Assembly: GCF_019039035.1 (NCBI RefSeq)
Contig: NZ_JAHNZT010000040.1
Location: 1 to 64,000 of the forward strand
Length of the DNA: 64,000 nucleotides
Origin: Citreicoccus inhibens
GTDB taxonomy: Bacteria > Myxococcota > Myxococcia > Myxococcales > Myxococcaceae
Direction: 5' to 3'
In this document: in pieces, positions 33,620-42,278 of the stretch
Layout: every line of letters begins with the position of its first letter
Position numbering within the stretch: the stretch's first letter is position 1
Program-made: the position numbers and the translations under genes
The notes under the pieces: generated by a model
What the model saw: the letters and a program-made list of their open reading frames with translations, nothing else
The model's database searches: none
Told to the model about the DNA's origin: nothing

Positions 33620-33683
33620 GCCGTTCCGAGCAGCGGACACGGCGGCGCGGACTCCTCCGCCGTGCCCACCCGGGACGGCTCAG
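33616..33683. terminator. Nested bidirectional hairpin carrying both stop codons
   Basis: The outer arms CTGAGCCGTTCC (33616-33627) and GGGACGGCTCAG (33672-33683) pair with one G-U. The inner arms CACGGCGG (33638-33645) and CCGCCGTG (33657-33664) pair perfectly. The left outer arm contains the TGA of the YeaQ-like gene; the right one, read on the minus strand, contains the TGA of the protease gene. It probably ends both transcripts. Confidence 0.65.
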
Positions 33684-35677
33684 CGAGTGACGCTCAGCGC
33701 GGTGTCATCCAGAAAAAAGCTGGTCGCGTCCGCCGCGTCTTCCGTGCCCTTGAAGGAGATGCGCACGGTCTGCCCCTTGTAGGCGCTCAGGTCGAACGTG
33801 CGCTGGACGTACGCGGTCCCCTTGTCCAGGTTGCTGTACGTGGCCAGCGTGCCCAACACGGCGCCCGCGCTGTTCTGCACCTGGATGGCCAGCGTGTCGT
33901 AGACCGTCGTCGTCGTGGTCTCCGAGGTGGTGATCTTCACCCAGACACTCAGCGAGGCCGAGCACGCCGTCGAGGGAACCGTGACCTGCTGGTAGAGAGA
34001 GTCCGAGTGGCTGGAGCCGTATCCATTGAGCCAGGCCTTGTACGTGCCCGTGCGCGGCGCGCTGCCGGATGTGGTGCCGTCGATGACGTCCGTGCTCAGG
34101 CTCCATCCGGTGTTGCCGCTCTCGAAGCCCGGGTTGGCCAGCAGCTGCTCGGAGATGGTGCAGCTGCCCACCACGTTGTCCACCGTCACGGACACGCTGG
34201 AGGACGTCCCCACGTTGCCCGCAGCGTCATACGCCTTCGCGGTGAGGACGTAAGCGCCGTTGGCCACGGAGGCGGTGTTCCAGTCGACCGCATACGGCGC
34301 GGTGGAGTCAGTGCCCAGCAAGGTGGTGCCGGCGTAGAACTCCACGCGCGAGACGCCCACGTTGTCCGAAGCGGTGGCGCTCACGGTCGACGTGCCGCTG
34401 AGAACGGCGCCGGCCGCAGGCGCGGTGAGGGACGTGGTGGGCGCGGTGGTGTCAGCCGGACCGCCGGTGATGAACAGCGTGTAGAGCAGCAGGTTGGGCG
34501 AGCCGGCGCCGGGGCTCGTCACCTTGCCGGAGGTGGCGTTGGCGACGAGCGCGTCGCGCACCTGCGCCGGGGTGGCTCCGGGGTTGGCGCTCAGGTACAG
34601 GGCCGCGGCGCCCGCCACGTGAGGAGACGCCATGGACGTCCCGCTCATGGACGTACTCCCGGTGGTGCTGGAGTACGAGGCCGAGGTGATGCTGGAGCCC
34701 GGCGCGAAGATGTCCACGCACGTCCCATAATTGGAGAACGAGGAGCGAGCGTCGCTGCTCGTGGTGGAGCCCACGGTGATGGCGTTGGGCGTGCGCGACG
34801 GCGAGTAGCTGCACGCATTGGCCGAGTCGTTGCCGGCCGCGACCGCCGTGGCGACGCCCGCGGCGACCATCCGCTCCACGGCATCATCCACGGCCTGTGA
34901 GGGATCGCCCCCGAGGCTCATGTTGGCGACCGCCGGCTTGATGTGGTGGGCCGTCACCCAGTCCATGCCGTCGACGACCTGCGCATCATCGCCGTAGCCC
35001 GTGCAGTCCAGGACGCGCACCGCGTGCAGGGTCACCTTCTTCGCCACGCCCCACGTGGTGCCACCCACCGTGCCCGCCACGTGCGTGCCATGGCCGTGGC
35101 AGTCGCTCGGGTCCGTGTCGTTGTCGATGGAGTCATGCCCCTCGCCCACGCGGCCGGTGAACTCCGTGTGGTTCAGCCGCATGCCAGTGTCGATGATGTA
35201 CGCGTGCACGCCGGTGCCATCGACGTTGTACGTGTACGCGCTGTCGCGCGGCAGGTTGCGCTGATCGATCCGGTCGATGCCCCAGGTAGCCCCCGTCTGG
35301 GTTCCCACCACGTGGAGCCGGCCGTTCTCCTGCACGTAGGCCACGCGTGGATCCGCGAGCAGCGCCTGGACCTGGGCCTCGCTCATGTTGACGAGGAAGC
35401 CCTGGAGCGCGTGCTGGTACGTGCGCAACACCTTGCCGCCATGCCGCGCGGTCAACTCCTGACCGATGTCCACGGCGCCGCGCGGGCGGACACCCGCGGC
35501 GCCGTCGCGCAGCACCACGATGTATTCGCCAGGACGCGCCTGCGGCCGGCGCAGGAGCTGGGCCACGTGCCCCACCTCCTGCGTGCCCGCATTCGGTTCG
35601 GATGAATCGGACGGCGGTCCACACGCCACGGTGAGCAGCGAGGCGGCCAGCACCGCCTGGGTCAGGTTCCGGATCAT
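33680..35677 (-). CDS. Subtilisin-like (S8) serine protease, exported, with Ig-like and C-terminal beta domains
   Basis: A 665-residue exported protease with signal peptide and possible lipobox LLTVAC (C19). An I9-type propeptide (EYIVVLRDGAAGV to VAYVQENG) precedes the catalytic domain. The triad is D163 (YIIDTGMRLNH), H196 (CHGHGTHVAG) and S348 (SGTSMASPHVAG), as in proteinase K relatives. Residues 410-500 are a bacterial Ig-like domain (VEFYAGTTLLGTDS). The C-terminal 150 residues (LLANPGFESGNTGWSL) form a carbohydrate-binding-like beta sandwich. It suits the predatory, protein-degrading life style. AGAGGA lies eight bases before the ATG. Confidence 0.93.
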   Translation of the reverse strand: MIRNLTQAVLAASLLTVACGPPSDSSEPNAGTQEVGHVAQLLRRPQARPGEYIVVLRDGAAGVRPRGAVDIGQELTARHGGKVLRTYQHALQGFLVNMSEAQVQALLADPRVAYVQENGRLHVVGTQTGATWGIDRIDQRNLPRDSAYTYNVDGTGVHAYIIDTGMRLNHTEFTGRVGEGHDSIDNDTDPSDCHGHGTHVAGTVGGTTWGVAKKVTLHAVRVLDCTGYGDDAQVVDGMDWVTAHHIKPAVANMSLGGDPSQAVDDAVERMVAAGVATAVAAGNDSANACSYSPSRTPNAITVGSTTSSDARSSFSNYGTCVDIFAPGSSITSASYSSTTGSTSMSGTSMASPHVAGAAALYLSANPGATPAQVRDALVANATSGKVTSPGAGSPNLLLYTLFITGGPADTTAPTTSLTAPAAGAVLSGTSTVSATASDNVGVSRVEFYAGTTLLGTDSTAPYAVDWNTASVANGAYVLTAKAYDAAGNVGTSSSVSVTVDNVVGSCTISEQLLANPGFESGNTGWSLSTDVIDGTTSGSAPRTGTYKAWLNGYGSSHSDSLYQQVTVPSTACSASLSVWVKITTSETTTTTVYDTLAIQVQNSAGAVLGTLATYSNLDKGTAYVQRTFDLSAYKGQTVRISFKGTEDAADATSFFLDDTALSVTR

Positions 35678-35841: not shown

Positions 35842-35869
35842 TTGCAAAGTCGCTCGGAATCAATATTCT
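35842..35869 (+). promoter_or_regulatory. Possible sigma-70 promoter of the DUF2089/LiaX-like operon
   Basis: TTGCAA (35842-35847) and TATTCT (35864-35869) are 16 bases apart, each 4/6 to consensus, in a stretch much richer in A and T than the surrounding DNA. The start would fall about 20 bases before the DUF2089 gene. Confidence 0.45.
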
Positions 35870-35886
35870 CAATGTCGAAATTGATT
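35858..35886 (+). promoter_or_regulatory. Inverted repeat over the predicted promoter start
   Basis: AATCAAT (35858-35864) and ATTGATT (35880-35886) are perfect 7-bp complements spaced 15 bases apart. They bracket the -10 element and the expected start point, where a repressor operator would sit. The downstream gene encodes a helix-turn-helix protein, so autoregulation is a fair guess but not shown. Confidence 0.4.
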
Positions 35887-35897
35887 TTTGAGAGTCT

Positions 35898-36332
35898 ATG
35901 ACCACCAAGACTTCAATCCACCCGATGCCGACCCGGTGCCCCGTTTGTGGTGAAGCGACCCACATCGAGCGCGTCCGATGTGATGACTGCGACAGCGCGG
36001 TGGAGGGGCGGTTCTCCGCGGGCTGGGTGCAGCAACTGGCGCCGGAGCAGCTGGCCTTCGCCCGGGTCTTCTTGAGCTGCCGCGGGAAGATCAAAGACGT
36101 GGAGCAGGTGTTGGGCGTCTCGTACCCCACGGTGGTGGCGCGACTGGACGAGTTGGTGGCGGCGCTCGGTGGAGCCGGGCCCCTGCCGCCCGCGCCTCCG
36201 CCCCCCCCATCGCGTCCGCTCCAGTCGGCGCGCGGAAACCTGCGCCGGGCCCAGATTCTCGATGACCTCGCGGCCGGGCTCATCGACGCGGATGAGGCCG
36301 CACGTCGACTGACGAAGCGCTTTCAGGAGTGA
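35898..36332 (+). CDS. DUF2089-family helix-turn-helix protein
   Basis: A 144-residue protein. The zinc-ribbon-like start (CPVCGEATHIERVRCDDCD) and the following helices (LAFARVFLSCRGKIKDVEQVLGVSYPTVVARLDELV) are the DUF2089 signature, with the last part a winged helix-turn-helix. A proline linker leads to a C-terminal module ILDDLAAGLIDADEAARRL, a short helical hairpin that recurs at the end of the next protein. DUF2089 members elsewhere are linked to envelope-stress loci. The stop lies six bases before the next start. Confidence 0.85.
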   Translation: MTTKTSIHPMPTRCPVCGEATHIERVRCDDCDSAVEGRFSAGWVQQLAPEQLAFARVFLSCRGKIKDVEQVLGVSYPTVVARLDELVAALGGAGPLPPAPPPPPSRPLQSARGNLRRAQILDDLAAGLIDADEAARRLTKRFQE

Positions 36333-36337
36333 TGCCC

Positions 36338-37339
36338 ATGAACGAACCCGAAACGAAGCCGTTCTCTCATGAGGGCCCCACGCGCCATGAGTTGCCGTGG
36401 GGAACGGACGCGGTGCTGGAGATCGAGGCGGACGCCGCGGTCCTCACCGTTGGGCCCCTCACCGAGGGCGAGACGCCCTACATGCTCGTGCATGGCGGGG
36501 TGGAGGCCGCGGTGCGCGAGGTCGGCAAGGTGACGAAGGTGGAGTTCGGGGCGCGTGAGCCCTCGGGCTTCTTCTCCTTCTTCCTGCGCGCCGCCCCCCA
36601 CGTGCAGCTCTTCCTGCCCAACAACCTCCGCGCCAGGTTCAAGCTCGACGCGGGCGCGATCCGCATCGCCGGGCTCCAGGGCTGCCACTTGGACGTATCC
36701 ACCAACGCGGGGGCCGTGAAGCTGCGCGGCGTGGAAGGACGACTGAACCTGCGCACGCGAGCGGGCGCCATCTTCGGCGAGCAGCTCGCGGGCGCCATCC
36801 AGGCCCACACGGGCGCGGGCACGGTGAAGCTGGACATCCTCAGCCTCACCCCGGGCGAGCACCTCATCAGCTCACAGCTTGGCGCGCTGGAGGTCCGCCT
36901 GGCGCCGAACCTGGACGTGCGCGTCGAGGCGAGCACCACGCTGGGCTCGGTCCGCAATCGCTATCCCCCCCACCCCAACGCCGCCGCCACGCTGCGGCTG
37001 ATGACCGAGCTCGGCTCGGTCCGGGTCCGCGGGGCGGGCGGGGGTGAGCAGGATGATGCGCGCGACGACCACGACCCTTGGCGCCACGATGCCGAGCGCT
37101 GGCAGCGGCAGGCCGAGCGCTGGCACCGCCGCGCGGACCGCCACGCGCACCGCTGGGCCCGGGCCTGGGAGCGAGCTGCCCCTTGGGGTGGCGCCCCCGC
37201 CGACTCGCACGTCCGTCCCCCCGAGCCCGGGACGGCTGGCATCCCAGACGAGGAGTTGCGTCGCGTGTTGCAGCTCGTGCAGGACGGCAAGGTCAGCGCC
37301 GAGGACGCACAGAAACTGCTGCGCGCCATGCAGCGTTGA
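36338..37339 (+). CDS. LiaX/YvlB-like protein: DUF4097-type beta repeat with SHOCT-like C-terminal module
   Basis: A 333-residue protein; AGGAG lies eight bases before the chosen ATG. Residues 20-235 form repeated beta strands of the DUF4097 adhesin-like type (VDVSTNAGAVKLRGVEG, LNLRTRAGAIFGEQL, VEASTTLGSVRNRY). Residues 237-275 are rich in Arg, Trp and His with WxR repeats. The end, ELRRVLQLVQDGKVSAEDAQKLL, matches the helical module of YvlB/LiaX, known in Firmicutes antibiotic and envelope-stress sensing. No signal peptide or membrane helix is visible. It is cotranscribed with the DUF2089 regulator. Confidence 0.72.
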   Translation: MNEPETKPFSHEGPTRHELPWGTDAVLEIEADAAVLTVGPLTEGETPYMLVHGGVEAAVREVGKVTKVEFGAREPSGFFSFFLRAAPHVQLFLPNNLRARFKLDAGAIRIAGLQGCHLDVSTNAGAVKLRGVEGRLNLRTRAGAIFGEQLAGAIQAHTGAGTVKLDILSLTPGEHLISSQLGALEVRLAPNLDVRVEASTTLGSVRNRYPPHPNAAATLRLMTELGSVRVRGAGGGEQDDARDDHDPWRHDAERWQRQAERWHRRADRHAHRWARAWERAAPWGGAPADSHVRPPEPGTAGIPDEELRRVLQLVQDGKVSAEDAQKLLRAMQR

Positions 37340-37395: not shown

Positions 37396-38670
37396 ATGTC
37401 TCTCACGCAGCCGTCCGCCCCCATCGCCCCGGCTCCCGAGCCGTCTTCCGTCCCGCTCCCCCGAGACGCGGCGCGCGGCTCGGGAAAGACCCTCTCCCTC
37501 GAGGGGCTGCGTGGGCTGGCGGCCTTCACGGTCATCCTCTCCCACTGCCTCTACGGGTTCTATCCGTTCCTCCATGAGGGGGGCGCCACGCAGCTGCGGG
37601 AGCCGTGGGAGCCCGTCCTCTTCGACAGCCCCCTCTGCGCGCTCTACAACGGCACGTATTCCGTCTGCGTGTTCTTCGTGATGAGTGGTTATGTGCTGAC
37701 GCGAAAGTTCTTCGCGCATGGCGAGGTCGCGCCCTTGCAGGAGGCCGCGGTGAAGCGCTACCTGCGACTGGGCCCACCGGTGCTCGTCTCGGTCCTGTTC
37801 GGCTATGGGCTGCTCAAGGCGGGCTTGTTCCCGGCGGGCAAGAGCGACCTGGGCCCGTTCCTGGCCTCCGCGTATCAGCAGGCGCCGTCGCTCGTGGAAG
37901 CCACGAAGGAGGGACTCTATCGGGCGCTGCTCCTGGGCTCGTCGCGGTACAACTACGTGCTCTGGACCATCCAGGTGGAGTTCATCGGCTCCATCGCGCT
38001 CTTCGCCTTCCTGGCACTGTTCGGGCGCTTCCGTGGCAGCGGCTGGTTGGCCACCGCCGTGTCGCTGTTGTTCATCCGCCTCTTCCCCGAGAACGGGCTC
38101 TTCTATTCGCTCTTCTTCGTGGGGGCGTACATGCACCGGTGGCCCGATCTGGGCCGCCAGCCCGTGCTCCTGGCGCTCGCGGTGCTCGTCGGGCTCTACC
38201 TGGGGGGCTACCACTGGAACAGCGCGGCCTATGCGCACGTCGTCGCGGTGGCCAACTGGATCCAGGTCCACATCGCCACCTTCGCGTGGCCGCTCTTCTT
38301 CCCCGCGGTGGGCTCGGTGCTGCTCGTCTGGGGAATCGTGCGGGAGAACGCTGTCGCGCGGTTCCTCTCGCTGCGCCCGCTCGTGTGGCTGGGTGACAAG
38401 TCCTTTGCCATCTACCTCTTGCACAGCACGGTGCTGTCGTCGCTGGGCGTGTTCGTCTACATGGGAATGCCCACGCACCTGTCCTATCTGACACGGGCGA
38501 GCGTGGCGTCCCTCTGCGTCATCATAGGCACCTTGCTCGTCGCGATTCCCTTCGCACGCTTCGTCGACGCGCGTTCGGTGCGGCTCTCCACGTGGTTTGG
38601 CAAGCTCGCCATGGGCCAGCTCCAGGCATTCCCTGGCGCGGGCGCTGCGAAGCGAGCATCGCAACGCTAG
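37396..38670 (+). CDS. Acyltransferase 3 family membrane protein
   Basis: A 424-residue polytopic membrane protein. After a proline-rich 30-residue head, the family start LSLEGLRGLAAFTVILSHCLYGF contains the conserved His. About ten membrane helices follow (LGVFVYMGM and others). Such enzymes O-acylate sugars, lipids or antibiotics at the membrane. Nine bases separate it from the ABC exporter pair, which suggests joint work on an exported acylated compound, but that is inferred from position only. Confidence 0.87.
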   Translation: MSLTQPSAPIAPAPEPSSVPLPRDAARGSGKTLSLEGLRGLAAFTVILSHCLYGFYPFLHEGGATQLREPWEPVLFDSPLCALYNGTYSVCVFFVMSGYVLTRKFFAHGEVAPLQEAAVKRYLRLGPPVLVSVLFGYGLLKAGLFPAGKSDLGPFLASAYQQAPSLVEATKEGLYRALLLGSSRYNYVLWTIQVEFIGSIALFAFLALFGRFRGSGWLATAVSLLFIRLFPENGLFYSLFFVGAYMHRWPDLGRQPVLLALAVLVGLYLGGYHWNSAAYAHVVAVANWIQVHIATFAWPLFFPAVGSVLLVWGIVRENAVARFLSLRPLVWLGDKSFAIYLLHSTVLSSLGVFVYMGMPTHLSYLTRASVASLCVIIGTLLVAIPFARFVDARSVRLSTWFGKLAMGQLQAFPGAGAAKRASQR

Positions 38671-38679
38671 TTCAATCCC

Positions 38680-40473
38680 ATGACAGACAGGCAACGGCCC
38701 GGGCAGTCCAAGGCAGGTGTCAAAGCCGTGGGGCGGGCCCTCGGCTACCTCCGCGGCTATCGCTGGGACACTGGGGGAGCCCTCCTTTCCATCCTCTTGC
38801 TCTCCGCGGCGAACCTCGCCGCGCCCCAGCTGGTGCGGCGCGCCATTGACGGCGGGCTCGCCAAGATGGAGCACCGGACCTTGATGCTCGCCGTGGCGGG
38901 CATGGTGGCCCTGGCCGCGGCCCGCGGCCTGTTCACCTTCTTCCAGGGGTACCTCGCGGAGCGGGCCTCGCAGGGCGTCGCGTTCGATCTCCGAGACGCC
39001 CTGTTCGCCCGCATCCAGCGACTGAGCTTCAGCTACTACGACCAGGCGCAGACGGGGCAGCTGCTCACCCGCCTCACCAATGACGTGGAGCAGGTGCGCA
39101 CGTTCGTGGGCTCGGGCGTGGTGCAGGTCGTGGCCTCCGCGGCGATGCTGGTGGGCTGCGCGGTGCTGCTGCTCGCGCTCAATCCCATCCTGGCGATGGG
39201 AGCGCTGGGCGCCATCGCGCCCATCTTGTGGGTGCTCAAGAGCTTCGTCGCGAGAATCGGCCCGCTGTTCGGCCAGGGGATGATTCTCCTGAGCAAGCTC
39301 AGCACGGTGCTCCAGGAGGACCTGCGCGGACTGCGGGTGGTGCGCGCCTTCTCTGGCGAGGCACGTGAAACCGCCCGCTACTCGGCCATCAACGACGAGC
39401 TGCTCGGGCAGAGCCTCCAGGCCATCGACGCGATGTCGAGCAACTTCCCCTTCGTGGGCCTCTTCGCGAACCTGGGCACGCTGGTGGTGGTGGGCCTGGG
39501 CGGGGTGTTGATCTTCAAGGACCGCCTCACGCTGGGCGAGCTCATCGCCTTCAACAGCTACCTGGGGTTCCTGCTGATGCCCATCATGACGCTGGGGTTC
39601 CTCGCGGCGCATCTGGCGCGCGCGGGCGCCTCGGCGGTCCGGGTCTTCGAGCTGCTCGACACGGCCGTGGAGGTGGCGGACGCACCGGGTGCGCGGGAGC
39701 TGCCGCCCCTGGAGGGCCGGCTGGAGCTGCGCGACGTCCGCTTCCGTTATGCCGGCAGCGAGCGGGAGATCCTCCGCGGGGTGAGCTTCGTCGCCGAGCC
39801 CGGGCAGTTGGTGGCCATCCTCGGCACCACGGGCGCGGGCAAGAGCACCATCATCAACCTGGTCCCCCGGTTCTATGACGTGACGGGCGGCAGCGTCCTC
39901 GTGGATGGCCATGACGTGCGCGAGGTCACGCTCGCCAGCCTGCGCGGGCAGATTGGCGTGGTGCTTCAGGACGCCCTGCTCTTCTCGGGCACCGTGCGCG
40001 ACAACATCGCCTATGGCCGGCCCGACGCGAGCATGGAGCAGGTCCGCGCGGCGGCGCAGGCGGCCCAGGCCGCGGAGTTCATCGAAGCACTCCCGGGTGG
40101 CTACGACACGGTGGTGGGCGAGCGCGGCGTGGGATTGTCGGGCGGACAGCGCCAGCGGCTCGCCATCGCGAGGGCCCTGCTCACCGAGCCCCGGCTGCTC
40201 ATCCTCGATGACAGCACCTCCGCGGTGGACGCGGAGACCGAGGCCGCCATCCAAGGCGCGCTGGACCGGCTGATGCGCAAGGCGGGCTGCACCTCGCTCG
40301 TCATCGCGCAGCGGATCAGCACCGTGCGCGACGCGGACCTCATCATCGTGCTCGACGAAGGGCGCGTGGCGGCGAGCGGCAAGCACGAGGAGCTCCTCGC
40401 GACCAGTGAGCTGTACAACCAGATTCTCGGCTCGCAGCTCCAGCCGGCCGCAGCCATGGAGGCCGCGTCATGA
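38680..40473 (+). CDS. ABC exporter half-transporter, subunit with degenerate ATP site (TM287-like)
   Basis: A 597-residue fusion of a six-helix membrane domain (1-320) and an ATPase domain (350-597). Walker A is LGTTGAGKST, the signature LSGGQRQRL and Walker B LLILDDSTSAVD. The catalytic Glu after Walker B is replaced by Asp, as in the TM287-type subunit of heterodimeric exporters. It overlaps the next ABC gene by ATGA, so the two form one asymmetric exporter. Substrate unknown; multidrug or a natural product are possible. Confidence 0.92.
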   Translation: MTDRQRPGQSKAGVKAVGRALGYLRGYRWDTGGALLSILLLSAANLAAPQLVRRAIDGGLAKMEHRTLMLAVAGMVALAAARGLFTFFQGYLAERASQGVAFDLRDALFARIQRLSFSYYDQAQTGQLLTRLTNDVEQVRTFVGSGVVQVVASAAMLVGCAVLLLALNPILAMGALGAIAPILWVLKSFVARIGPLFGQGMILLSKLSTVLQEDLRGLRVVRAFSGEARETARYSAINDELLGQSLQAIDAMSSNFPFVGLFANLGTLVVVGLGGVLIFKDRLTLGELIAFNSYLGFLLMPIMTLGFLAAHLARAGASAVRVFELLDTAVEVADAPGARELPPLEGRLELRDVRFRYAGSEREILRGVSFVAEPGQLVAILGTTGAGKSTIINLVPRFYDVTGGSVLVDGHDVREVTLASLRGQIGVVLQDALLFSGTVRDNIAYGRPDASMEQVRAAAQAAQAAEFIEALPGGYDTVVGERGVGLSGGQRQRLAIARALLTEPRLLILDDSTSAVDAETEAAIQGALDRLMRKAGCTSLVIAQRISTVRDADLIIVLDEGRVAASGKHEELLATSELYNQILGSQLQPAAAMEAAS

Positions 40474-42278
40474 GGCGCCCGGGCAGCATCGAGTCCATGG
40501 CGGAGCTGGAGGTCCAGCACGCCGCGCATCGCGGGGAGGTCGCTCGGCGACTCCTGACGGAGCTGCGGCCGTACCGCGGCATGTTGACCGTGGCCATGGT
40601 GTTCATCGCGGTGGGTGCCGGAGCGCAGTCCCTGGCGCCGTACCTGGTGAGCCGCGCCATCGACCGGGACATCGGGCACCGCGACCTCCTGGGGCTCGCG
40701 GGCACCATGGGCGCGCTGCTCGTCGTCTACCTGGTTGGAGCGTTCGCCCAGCGCGAGCAGACCCGCCGCGTGGGCGCGATGGGGCAGCGCGTGCTCGCGG
40801 TGCTGCGCGTGCGGCTCTTCACCCAGCTCCAATCGCTCCCCCTCGCCTACTTCGACAAGCGCTCCCTGGGCGACCTGATGAGCCGCGTCGCCAGCGACGT
40901 GGAGACGCTCAATCAGTTCTTCTCGCAGGGGCTGACGCAGTTGCTGGGGTCGCTCATCGGGTTGGTGGGCATCCTCGTGACGATGCTGGTGCTCAACGCG
41001 CCCCTGGCGCTCGCGTGCTTCACCATCATCCCCGTGATGCTGGCCACGACCTGGCTCTTCGCGGCGCGCGCGCGACGCGCGTATCGCAAGACGCGGGAGA
41101 CGGTGGGCAACGTCACCGCTGAGCTCCAGGAGGAGATCGTCGGCGTGCGGCAGGCCCAGGCCTTCAACCGGACGGAGATGAACATCGAGCGCTTCCGCCA
41201 GCGCAACGCCGCGAACCGCGATGCGAACGTGGCCGCGGTGGGCGTCACCTCCGCGTTCTCTCCCGCCATCGACGTGCTGTCCGCCCTGTCCACCGCGCTG
41301 GTGATTGGCTATGGCGGCTCGCTCGTGCTCGCGGGGCGCTTGAGCGTGGGGATGCTCGCCGCGTTCCTCATCTACGTGCAGCAGTTCTTCCGGCCCGTGC
41401 AGCTCGCGGCGTCGGTCTACACGTTGATGCAGTCCGCGCTCGCGGGCGCCGAGCGGGTGTTCGCCATCTTCGACGAGCCGCGCGAGCCCGCGGACATCCC
41501 CGGGGCGCACGTCCTGCAACGCGTCGAGGGGAACCTGGAGTTCGACCGGGTGTCCTTCCACTACGACCCCGCGAACCCGGTGCTGCGCGACGTGACCTTC
41601 CAGGTCCGCCGAGGCCAGACCGTGGCCCTCGTCGGCAAGACGGGCGCAGGAAAGACGACGGTCGCGAGCCTCGTCCCTCGCTTCTACGACGTCACCTCGG
41701 GCACGGTCCGTCTGGATGGCCACGACGTGCGCCAGGTGACGCGCGCGAGCCTTCGCCAGCAGCTCGCGATGGTGCTCCAGGAGCCCGTGCTCTTCTCGGG
41801 GACCATCGCGGACAACATCGGCTACGGGAAGCCGGACGCGACGCGCGAGGAGATTGAAGCGGCCGCGCGCGCCGTGCACGCGCACGACTTCATCGCGGCG
41901 TTGCCCAAGGGCTATGACAGCGTGCTCGGGGAGGGGGGCTCCTCGCTGAGTCAGGGGCAGCGCCAGCTGCTCGCGTTCGCGCGCGCCGTCATCACGGATC
42001 CGCGCGTGCTCATCCTGGATGAGGCCACCGCGAACATCGACACGCGCACCGAGGCGCTCATCCAGCAGGCCCTGGCCACACTGCTCGCCGGGCGCACCAG
42101 CATCGTCATCGCGCACCGGCTGAGCACCATCCGGACCGCGGATCTCATCCTCGTCATCGACGCGGGCCGGGTCGCGGAGCAGGGCACGCACGACGAGCTG
42201 CTCCGACACGGTGGGCTGTACGCGGACCTGTACCAACGGCAGTTCCGGGAGTCGCAGCCGGTGCGCAGCACGGGGTAG
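40470..42278 (+). CDS. ABC exporter half-transporter, catalytically complete subunit (TM288-like)
   Basis: A 602-residue half-transporter starting at the ATG that overlaps the previous stop. The membrane domain (1-335) is followed by an ATPase with Walker A VGKTGAGKTTV, signature LSQGQRQLL and Walker B LILDEATANID, with the catalytic Glu present. The LSQGQ variant signature contributes to the partner's degenerate site, the pattern known from TM287/288. The pair should hydrolyse ATP mainly at one site. Confidence 0.92.
   Translation: MRRPGSIESMAELEVQHAAHRGEVARRLLTELRPYRGMLTVAMVFIAVGAGAQSLAPYLVSRAIDRDIGHRDLLGLAGTMGALLVVYLVGAFAQREQTRRVGAMGQRVLAVLRVRLFTQLQSLPLAYFDKRSLGDLMSRVASDVETLNQFFSQGLTQLLGSLIGLVGILVTMLVLNAPLALACFTIIPVMLATTWLFAARARRAYRKTRETVGNVTAELQEEIVGVRQAQAFNRTEMNIERFRQRNAANRDANVAAVGVTSAFSPAIDVLSALSTALVIGYGGSLVLAGRLSVGMLAAFLIYVQQFFRPVQLAASVYTLMQSALAGAERVFAIFDEPREPADIPGAHVLQRVEGNLEFDRVSFHYDPANPVLRDVTFQVRRGQTVALVGKTGAGKTTVASLVPRFYDVTSGTVRLDGHDVRQVTRASLRQQLAMVLQEPVLFSGTIADNIGYGKPDATREEIEAAARAVHAHDFIAALPKGYDSVLGEGGSSLSQGQRQLLAFARAVITDPRVLILDEATANIDTRTEALIQQALATLLAGRTSIVIAHRLSTIRTADLILVIDAGRVAEQGTHDELLRHGGLYADLYQRQFRESQPVRSTG

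Follow-up and report, generated by a model that had tools for sequence, protein, structure and literature searches.

The window analysed in this work is a stretch of 64,000 nt from Citreicoccus inhibens (assembly GCF_019039035.1, contig NZ_JAHNZT010000040.1, positions 1 to 64,000 of the forward strand). It carries two consecutive plus-strand genes, located where the earlier note on this DNA had put them: a DUF2089 regulator of 144 aa (P0001, 35898–36332) and a Toastrack protein of 333 aa (P0002, 36338–37339), separated by a stop-to-start gap of 5 nt, with AGGAG at 36325–36329 ahead of the P0002 start. A subtilisin-like S8 protease with an I9 propeptide, an Ig-like domain and a MAM-like tail (33680–35677, minus strand) is encoded divergently from the regulator, and 3' of the pair lie an Acyltransferase_3 gene and two ABC transporter genes (37396–42278), read in the same direction and separated by short intergenic gaps. 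The acyltransferase gene begins 57 nt after the pair, and the order recurs in the one other genome of the genus (L147). The other neighbourhoods examined (L044, L048, and L144–L146) differ, and on this ground we rejected the acyltransferase and the ABC transporters as members of the circuit. PspA, PspC, and LiaI-LiaF-TM are absent from the operon, the next three genes being the acyltransferase and the two transporters. PspA is encoded elsewhere in the C. inhibens genome, and also in two genomes devoid of DUF2089 (G062 and G031). In a Myxococcaceae MAG (L049, 1908–5069, also L030) genes for an ABC ATPase and for an FtsX-type permease come next after the DUF2089–Toastrack pair, whose Toastrack frame (L030) is interrupted by a stop.

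The regulator P0001 consists of three parts, all seen in its AlphaFold2 model (pLDDT 83.5). A zinc ribbon spans residues 14–43 (35937–36026, plus strand; PF22747, 45.4 bits over a cut-off of 27.6, E 8.7e-12), with cysteines C14, C17, C28, and C31 invariant in 76 aligned sequences, and a helix-turn-helix (HTH) follows at residues 47–91 (36036–36170, plus strand; PF09862, the DUF2089 HTH, 73.3 bits over a cut-off of 33.4, E 1.2e-20); these two matches confirm the zinc-ribbon HTH partner that had been read from the sequence before. The alignment A4 leaves out L049, L069, L076, L083, and L093. The third part is a SHOCT-like hairpin at residues 117–140 (36246–36317, plus strand), with modelled helices at 110–125 and 131–143, which matches PF22746 with 17.9 bits, below the cut-off of 27 (E 0.0023). 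By structure search the HTH fold weakly resembles sigma region 4 and LuxR-type HTH domains, none of them at E ≤ 0.001. No transmembrane segment is evident in P0001 (best 19-residue hydropathy 1.13), and apart from the ribbon and the hairpin the protein has no evident domain for dimerisation.

The P0002 model (pLDDT 86.6) shows a beta-helix, or Toastrack, domain at residues 15–232 (36380–37033, plus strand), a long helix at residues 247–280 (37076–37177, plus strand), and a two-helix hairpin at residues 304–332 (helices 304–315 and 321–332). The segment 305–332 (37250–37333, plus strand) matches PF22746 with 30.3 bits, above the cut-off of 27 (E 2.8e-7). The best PDB match by Foldseek is 4QRK, with a single-stranded beta-helix fold (E 1.7e-9, TM 0.35/0.49), which is given as a Toastrack structure in the parts of Ravi et al. 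(2024, PMC11237479) covered here; the YvlB/LiaX-type fold once proposed for P0002 thus held up. At family level P0002 stays below the cut-offs of PF13349 (DUF4097/Toastrack; 14.9 bits versus 22.9, its relative L050 scoring 22.2), of the NCBIfam LiaX model (NF038025; 14.8 versus 350, E 0.0089), and of the LiaG model (NF049997; 28 versus 285). An Arg/Trp/His-rich stretch had also been pointed out, and this is what the model folds into the helix 247–280, which is strongly amphipathic, with a moment of 0.74 against 0.20 ± 0.10 in shuffled sequences (none of 5000 as high). By eye, the helix is present in 14 of 20 aligned sequences, our own included, and is missing in L014, L025, L027, L031, L062, and L050; the P0002 of L030, with its in-frame stop, was left out of this alignment (A3). 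P0002 has no evident transmembrane segment (best 19-residue hydropathy 0.96), and its Trp/Arg helix might act as a stand-in for the membrane proteins found in other versions of the system.

Gene pairing and the shared hairpin

A DUF2089 domain over the cut-off was detected in 25 of 96 Myxococcaceae genomes. Counting outward from the 23 loci of P0001's type (own included) and dropping two that are cut by contig ends (L015 and L016), a P0002 homologue adjoins the regulator in 21 of 21 assessable loci, again with our own included, so that the expected co-occurrence of the two genes was indeed found; two of these (L011 and L019) reach a contig end, and a third, L030, is the one with the in-frame stop. 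The two remaining DUF2089 genes (L032 and L033) belong to another subfamily and have no P0002 homologue within 1.5 kb. Outside the Myxococcaceae, of the 74 loci scanned with Pfam, the next protein, picked mechanically, has PF22746 in 60 and DUF4097 in 22 (L029 and L044–L049 were taken as copies of rows already included and are not part of this survey). At locus L112 of Desulfosporosinus the module is present on the next protein, which gives no Toastrack match, and therefore a module-bearing partner, rather than the Toastrack domain as such, is the commoner feature. In L062, L072, and L120 the downstream genes encode small proteins with a SHOCT-like module at the start and an uncharacterised tail at the end.

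In the tree built here, which takes 7 of 30 Firmicutes loci and leaves out L045 and L046, the 11 Myxococcaceae rows group together (99/100) and fork with L050, L062, L065, and L058 without strong support (87/79), apart from five other Myxococcota rows. This placement hints at transfer. The Firmicutes set and the set of 80 kept among 568 DUF2089 relatives overlap by at least one locus (L112 = L174).

The SHOCT domain of Eberhardt et al. 2013 is said to be a short, mostly C-terminal module present on many proteins; the module described here belongs to a separate Pfam family, SHOCT-like_DUF2089-C (PF22746). Both C-termini match this family, P0002 above and P0001 below the cut-off, in agreement with the earlier note, which had aligned the two protein ends as one helical module and had asked whether profile searches would score them as unrelated. 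In the whole genome the cut-off is passed at two places, P0002 and the head of a polyketide-synthase (PKS) protein, with P0001 coming third. Taken alone, the two tails are modestly similar (5 identities in 25 residues), with the true register scoring best among all 25-mers of P0002 and 416 of 100,000 shuffles scoring as high. A regulator-only profile, built from the C-termini of the 105 regulators, out of 109 relatives, that fit a home-made seed profile, matches the P0002 orthologues L012, L020, L021, and L031 in their gene clusters. The window's own P0002 is missed by this profile at E ≤ 1 and is matched by the Pfam PF22746 model. With the same profile the module appears C-terminal on Toastrack proteins and N-terminal on Chloroflexota proteins of roughly 205 and 125 aa. 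Within the DNA stretch examined around each of the 74 non-Myxococcaceae loci (E ≤ 0.01), same-strand module-bearing proteins besides the regulator number at least one in 66, at least two in 39, and at least three in 17.

The modules of regulators and those of partners fall into two subfamilies, with similarities of 0.49 and 0.54 within and 0.28 across, values on which we rejected recent copying (gene conversion) between the two. Over 44 pairs, similarity is no higher between cognate than between non-cognate modules (0.287 versus 0.279, p = 0.10), which disfavours a private lock-and-key pairing; in this comparison the downstream picks for L010, L019, L020, and L021 were replaced by tblastn-based coordinates.

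The PKS match (C11:168638–168727, L002) reaches 29.2 bits alone. It could have been a chance hit inside a ketosynthase, an explanation that we discarded, as it sits at the head of the next PKS protein, which starts immediately behind the stop codon of a ketosynthase protein whose tail is a similar hairpin. Head and preceding tail hairpin share 8 of 19 residues, and 4 of 20,000 shuffles were as good. Docking domains of about 25 residues and two helices are known to bind pairwise at PKS junctions (VirA-VirFG, PDB 2N5D), according to the portions of PMC9113145 consulted, and it seems from these matches that the PF22746 family takes in PKS docking domains. The likeness lies in two-helix modules of this length that sit at protein ends and meet in pairs. 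The difference is that PKS docking domains link enzyme subunits, whereas here a regulator and a putative sensor would be joined. A profile of 19 modules gives no match to 2N5D at E ≤ 10, so that the link to that docking domain is one of analogy rather than of demonstrated kinship. In structure searches, no convincing match was obtained for the PKS head (best E 1.7), the PKS tail (0.077), or the profile of 19 modules (0.14), and our literature search found nothing joining the terms "docking domain" and "SHOCT".

Predicted operator array and promoter

The operator-like inverted repeat reported ahead of the regulator turned out, in upstream alignments and in spacing counts against controls, to be a conserved element and part of an array. 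In the window this predicted array reads TCAA-N5-TCAA, N8, TTGA-N5-GAGA (35860–35893, assigned to neither strand), with the conserved inner junction TCAA-N8-TTGA at 35869–35884, degenerate outer half-sites, and a spacing common to three groups. The junction lies just before the start in 18 of the 20 Myxococcaceae upstreams, the set on which the motif was defined; it is kept in L014, L027, L030, and L031, whose regulators are 53–63% identical to P0001, and the upstreams of L025 and L016 differ from it by one base. Outside the family the strict motif is found in 10 of 74 upstreams, against a shuffle mean of 0.42 and a maximum of 2 over 200 shuffles. It ranks first of 3,840 combinations (256 tetramers by 15 spacers) in these 74 loci, the next being TTGA-N5-TCAA with 8.

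The Firmicutes sample, fetched after the motif had been defined, comprises the best 30 loci (46 of 73 genomes match). None of its 30 upstreams contains the strict motif, and relaxed TYAA-N8-TTRA and TTRA-N5-TYAA each occur in 27 of the 30. The relaxation of the half-sites (T/C and G/A swaps) was chosen after viewing the Firmicutes sequences, with the N8 spacing fixed before. For the remaining spacers in the range 2–15 the counts stay at 0 to 9 of the 30, apart from TTRA-N8-TYAA (15) and TYAA-N5-TTRA (26), whose high counts arise because TTAA is its own complement. Taken together, the N5 and N8 spacings describe an array in which a 13-bp unit, TTRA-N5-TYAA, recurs every 21 bp, that is, every two helical turns. 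Three consecutive half-sites were found in 27 of 30 Firmicutes, 11 of 73 outside (mainly Chloroflexota), and 3 of 20 Myxococcaceae upstreams, with shuffle means of 0.07, 0.07, and 0.00 (60 shuffles); they are missing in the other 62 and 17 upstreams of the latter two sets. As a control we used upstreams of other genes in the same loci, 254 regions from which we first discarded nine that belong to divergent genes lying no more than 300 bp from DUF2089. Three of the 245 left have three half-sites (L074, L086, and L119), all located between a divergent gene and the DUF2089 frame, roughly 400–650 bp ahead of DUF2089; those of L074 and L119 precede a small intervening plus-strand gene.

Across one Firmicutes order, 41 of the 75 exact double units among the matches listed lie at most 600 bp upstream of a DUF2089 HTH, in 26 of 38 genomes, and 34 lie elsewhere; among the same matches, 12 of the 38 genomes have no exact double unit beside DUF2089. 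No wider regulon is visible in the C. inhibens genome, because TCAA-N8-TTGA occurs there 31 times and the reversed pattern 25 times. Besides the operator of the pair, this genome has a single further TCAA-N8-TTGATTTT site (L124, C38:66287–66306, TCAAACTAACACTTGATTTT), which lies between two genes that, by our own reading of the sequence, are presumably moeA and a Lys-rich gene. This element is unchanged in 36 of 45 genomes of the genera g1, g5, and g19, and was rejected as a regulon member since it is kept also where DUF2089 is absent; we record it as a conserved element with no assigned role. Behind a second operator copy in G053 (C55:305517–305536, about position 3018 of L141) come a broken DUF2089 start and then, at the contig end, a gene for an ABC-transporter ATPase. 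A different contig end matches the ABC part at 99%, and for this reason an assembly join or rearrangement is possible there and the transporter was not used as a regulon member. In L223 (G236, 1802–1856) a three-unit array overlaps the beginning of a 616-aa frame lying far from DUF2089, a possible second target.

The candidate core promoter of the pair is TTGCAA (35842–35847), 16 bp, and TATTCT (35864–35869) on the plus strand. It is mostly conserved in the aligned upstreams of the genus itself, of Corallococcus, and of g19 loci, and fits 8 of 12 consensus positions, below the threshold of our promoter scan, which found none. A sigma-70-like promoter is present in 26 of the 30 Firmicutes upstreams, and in 22 of these 26 the left half of a unit coincides with the −35 hexamer, compared to 12 of 38 promoters outside and 1 of 24 in the controls. 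In the window, the candidate −10 and DNA downstream of it are covered by the array, so that the place of the array relative to the promoter is not fixed. The −35 overlap in Firmicutes suggests autorepression, which is favoured because a protein bound over the promoter should block RNA polymerase.

Proposed mechanism and alternatives

Starting from domains, a gene pairing, an operator architecture, and an overlap with −35 elements that are established by computation, we infer that P0001 is the array-binding protein, that it represses, that the hairpins pair, and that the signal comes from the envelope. The locus would then be a two-gene, membrane-partner-free version of the predicted DUF2089–Toastrack (lia/PSP-like) system, with P0001 as an autorepressor relieved by P0002 through paired hairpins, a reading that we hold tentatively, at slightly less than even credence. 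P0001 would bind its own promoter at the array of units 21 bp apart and repress the operon, which in other lineages it would do by occupying the −35 hexamer. Its SHOCT-like hairpin would serve for docking or oligomerisation by pairing with another such hairpin, a step proposed by analogy with the PKS docking pair. P0001 has no other evident dimer domain besides the ribbon, yet its predicted site consists of palindromes repeated in phase; adjacent P0001 molecules may therefore be joined by the hairpin, and competition could come from a partner that carries the same hairpin. P0002 would carry the same kind of module behind its beta-helix, and in this clade the Trp/Arg amphipathic helix could touch the membrane; once the envelope is disturbed, P0002 would capture P0001 through the paired hairpins and repression would be relieved.

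Autorepression has to be weighed against the opposite sign of control, in which P0001 would activate its own operon, with units in phase upstream of, or on, the −35 recruiting RNA polymerase. The further units found upstream of the −35 at 21-bp steps in Firmicutes and the weak resemblance of the HTH to sigma region 4 are in line with activation, but the left half of the unit is usually the TTGACA hexamer itself, which would exclude sigma region 4, and the window array extends over the candidate −10 and downstream, so that we consider an activator unlikely. It is very unlikely, in our view, that the upstream element is an ordinary AT-rich promoter or the site of another regulator: it does overlap −35 and −10 elements, and the moeA intergenic site is kept with or without DUF2089, but spacings 5 and 8 stand out from the others, such overlap is nearly absent from control promoters, and all three control regions with three half-sites lie before a DUF2089 cluster.

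The role of the hairpin is a separate matter. Each protein might use it as its own membrane anchor or homodimer module, with no joining of regulator and partner, and the division into two subfamilies with no cognate signal speaks for this; it is a real possibility, one that we nevertheless rather doubt. The several module-bearing proteins linked with the regulator fit mutual contact, as does the PKS docking precedent, where the match is the head of a protein and not the interior of a ketosynthase. Carrying the repressor-and-capture reading further, DUF2089 proteins in general might be cross-phylum one-component autorepressors that rival the sigma factor for the −35 on a 21-bp-phased array and are switched by capture through the SHOCT-like hairpin, a PKS-type docking module shared with membrane-facing partners; this generalisation is conceivable, and we lean against it for the moment. 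If true, it would amount to a kinase-free envelope-stress circuit with an operator that can be read from sequence. The spaced operator in Firmicutes, Chloroflexota, and Myxococcaceae offers a direct binding test, the operator findings suggest that control by the regulator is mostly confined to its own cluster, and what the shared hairpin does is testable in a small two-protein system with no transmembrane parts.

The locus had been described in the earlier note as an undescribed envelope-stress circuit; its observation was borne out, and its interpretation found partial support and had in part already appeared in print. DUF2089 as zinc ribbon, HTH, and SHOCT-like module within Toastrack operons, with a proposed lia-like role, is already found in Ravi et al. 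(2024, mSystems, PMC11237479), as far as the sections covered here go. The four-gene context given there resembles ours in the composition of the regulator, its link to Toastrack genes, and the lia-like signalling proposed. In contrast, the window has two such genes, with no LiaI-LiaF-TM, B-box, or PspC partner, its Toastrack protein bears the Trp/Arg helix, and no operator is named for the context of Ravi et al. in those sections. More widely, the literature covered, supplements aside, names no target DNA or operator for DUF2089, and the regularly spaced predicted operator is the new, testable part of this analysis.

Two characterised proteins are close enough for comparison. One is YvlB of Bacillus subtilis, which we take to be CAB15517.1. 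For CAB15517.1 a SHOCT-like N-terminus is given by Ravi et al. (PMC11237479, in the part covered); the module would thus be N-terminal in YvlB and is C-terminal in P0002. YvlB is, like P0002, a DUF4097 (Toastrack) protein and interacts with PspA and LiaH, and the yvl operon, unlike the window pair, holds a PspC-domain protein, YvlC (PMC9239133, in the text covered); DUF2089 is absent from the main text of that paper. The other is LiaX of Enterococcus, whose NCBIfam model matches P0002 weakly and far below its cut-off, as given above; LiaX is under LiaFSR control and its N-terminal domain is released (PMC11601895, in the portion covered). DUF2089 genes also sit in leaderless-bacteriocin clusters, according to the parts of PMC9484092 and PMC7332713 covered, a context that fits membrane attack as a theme.
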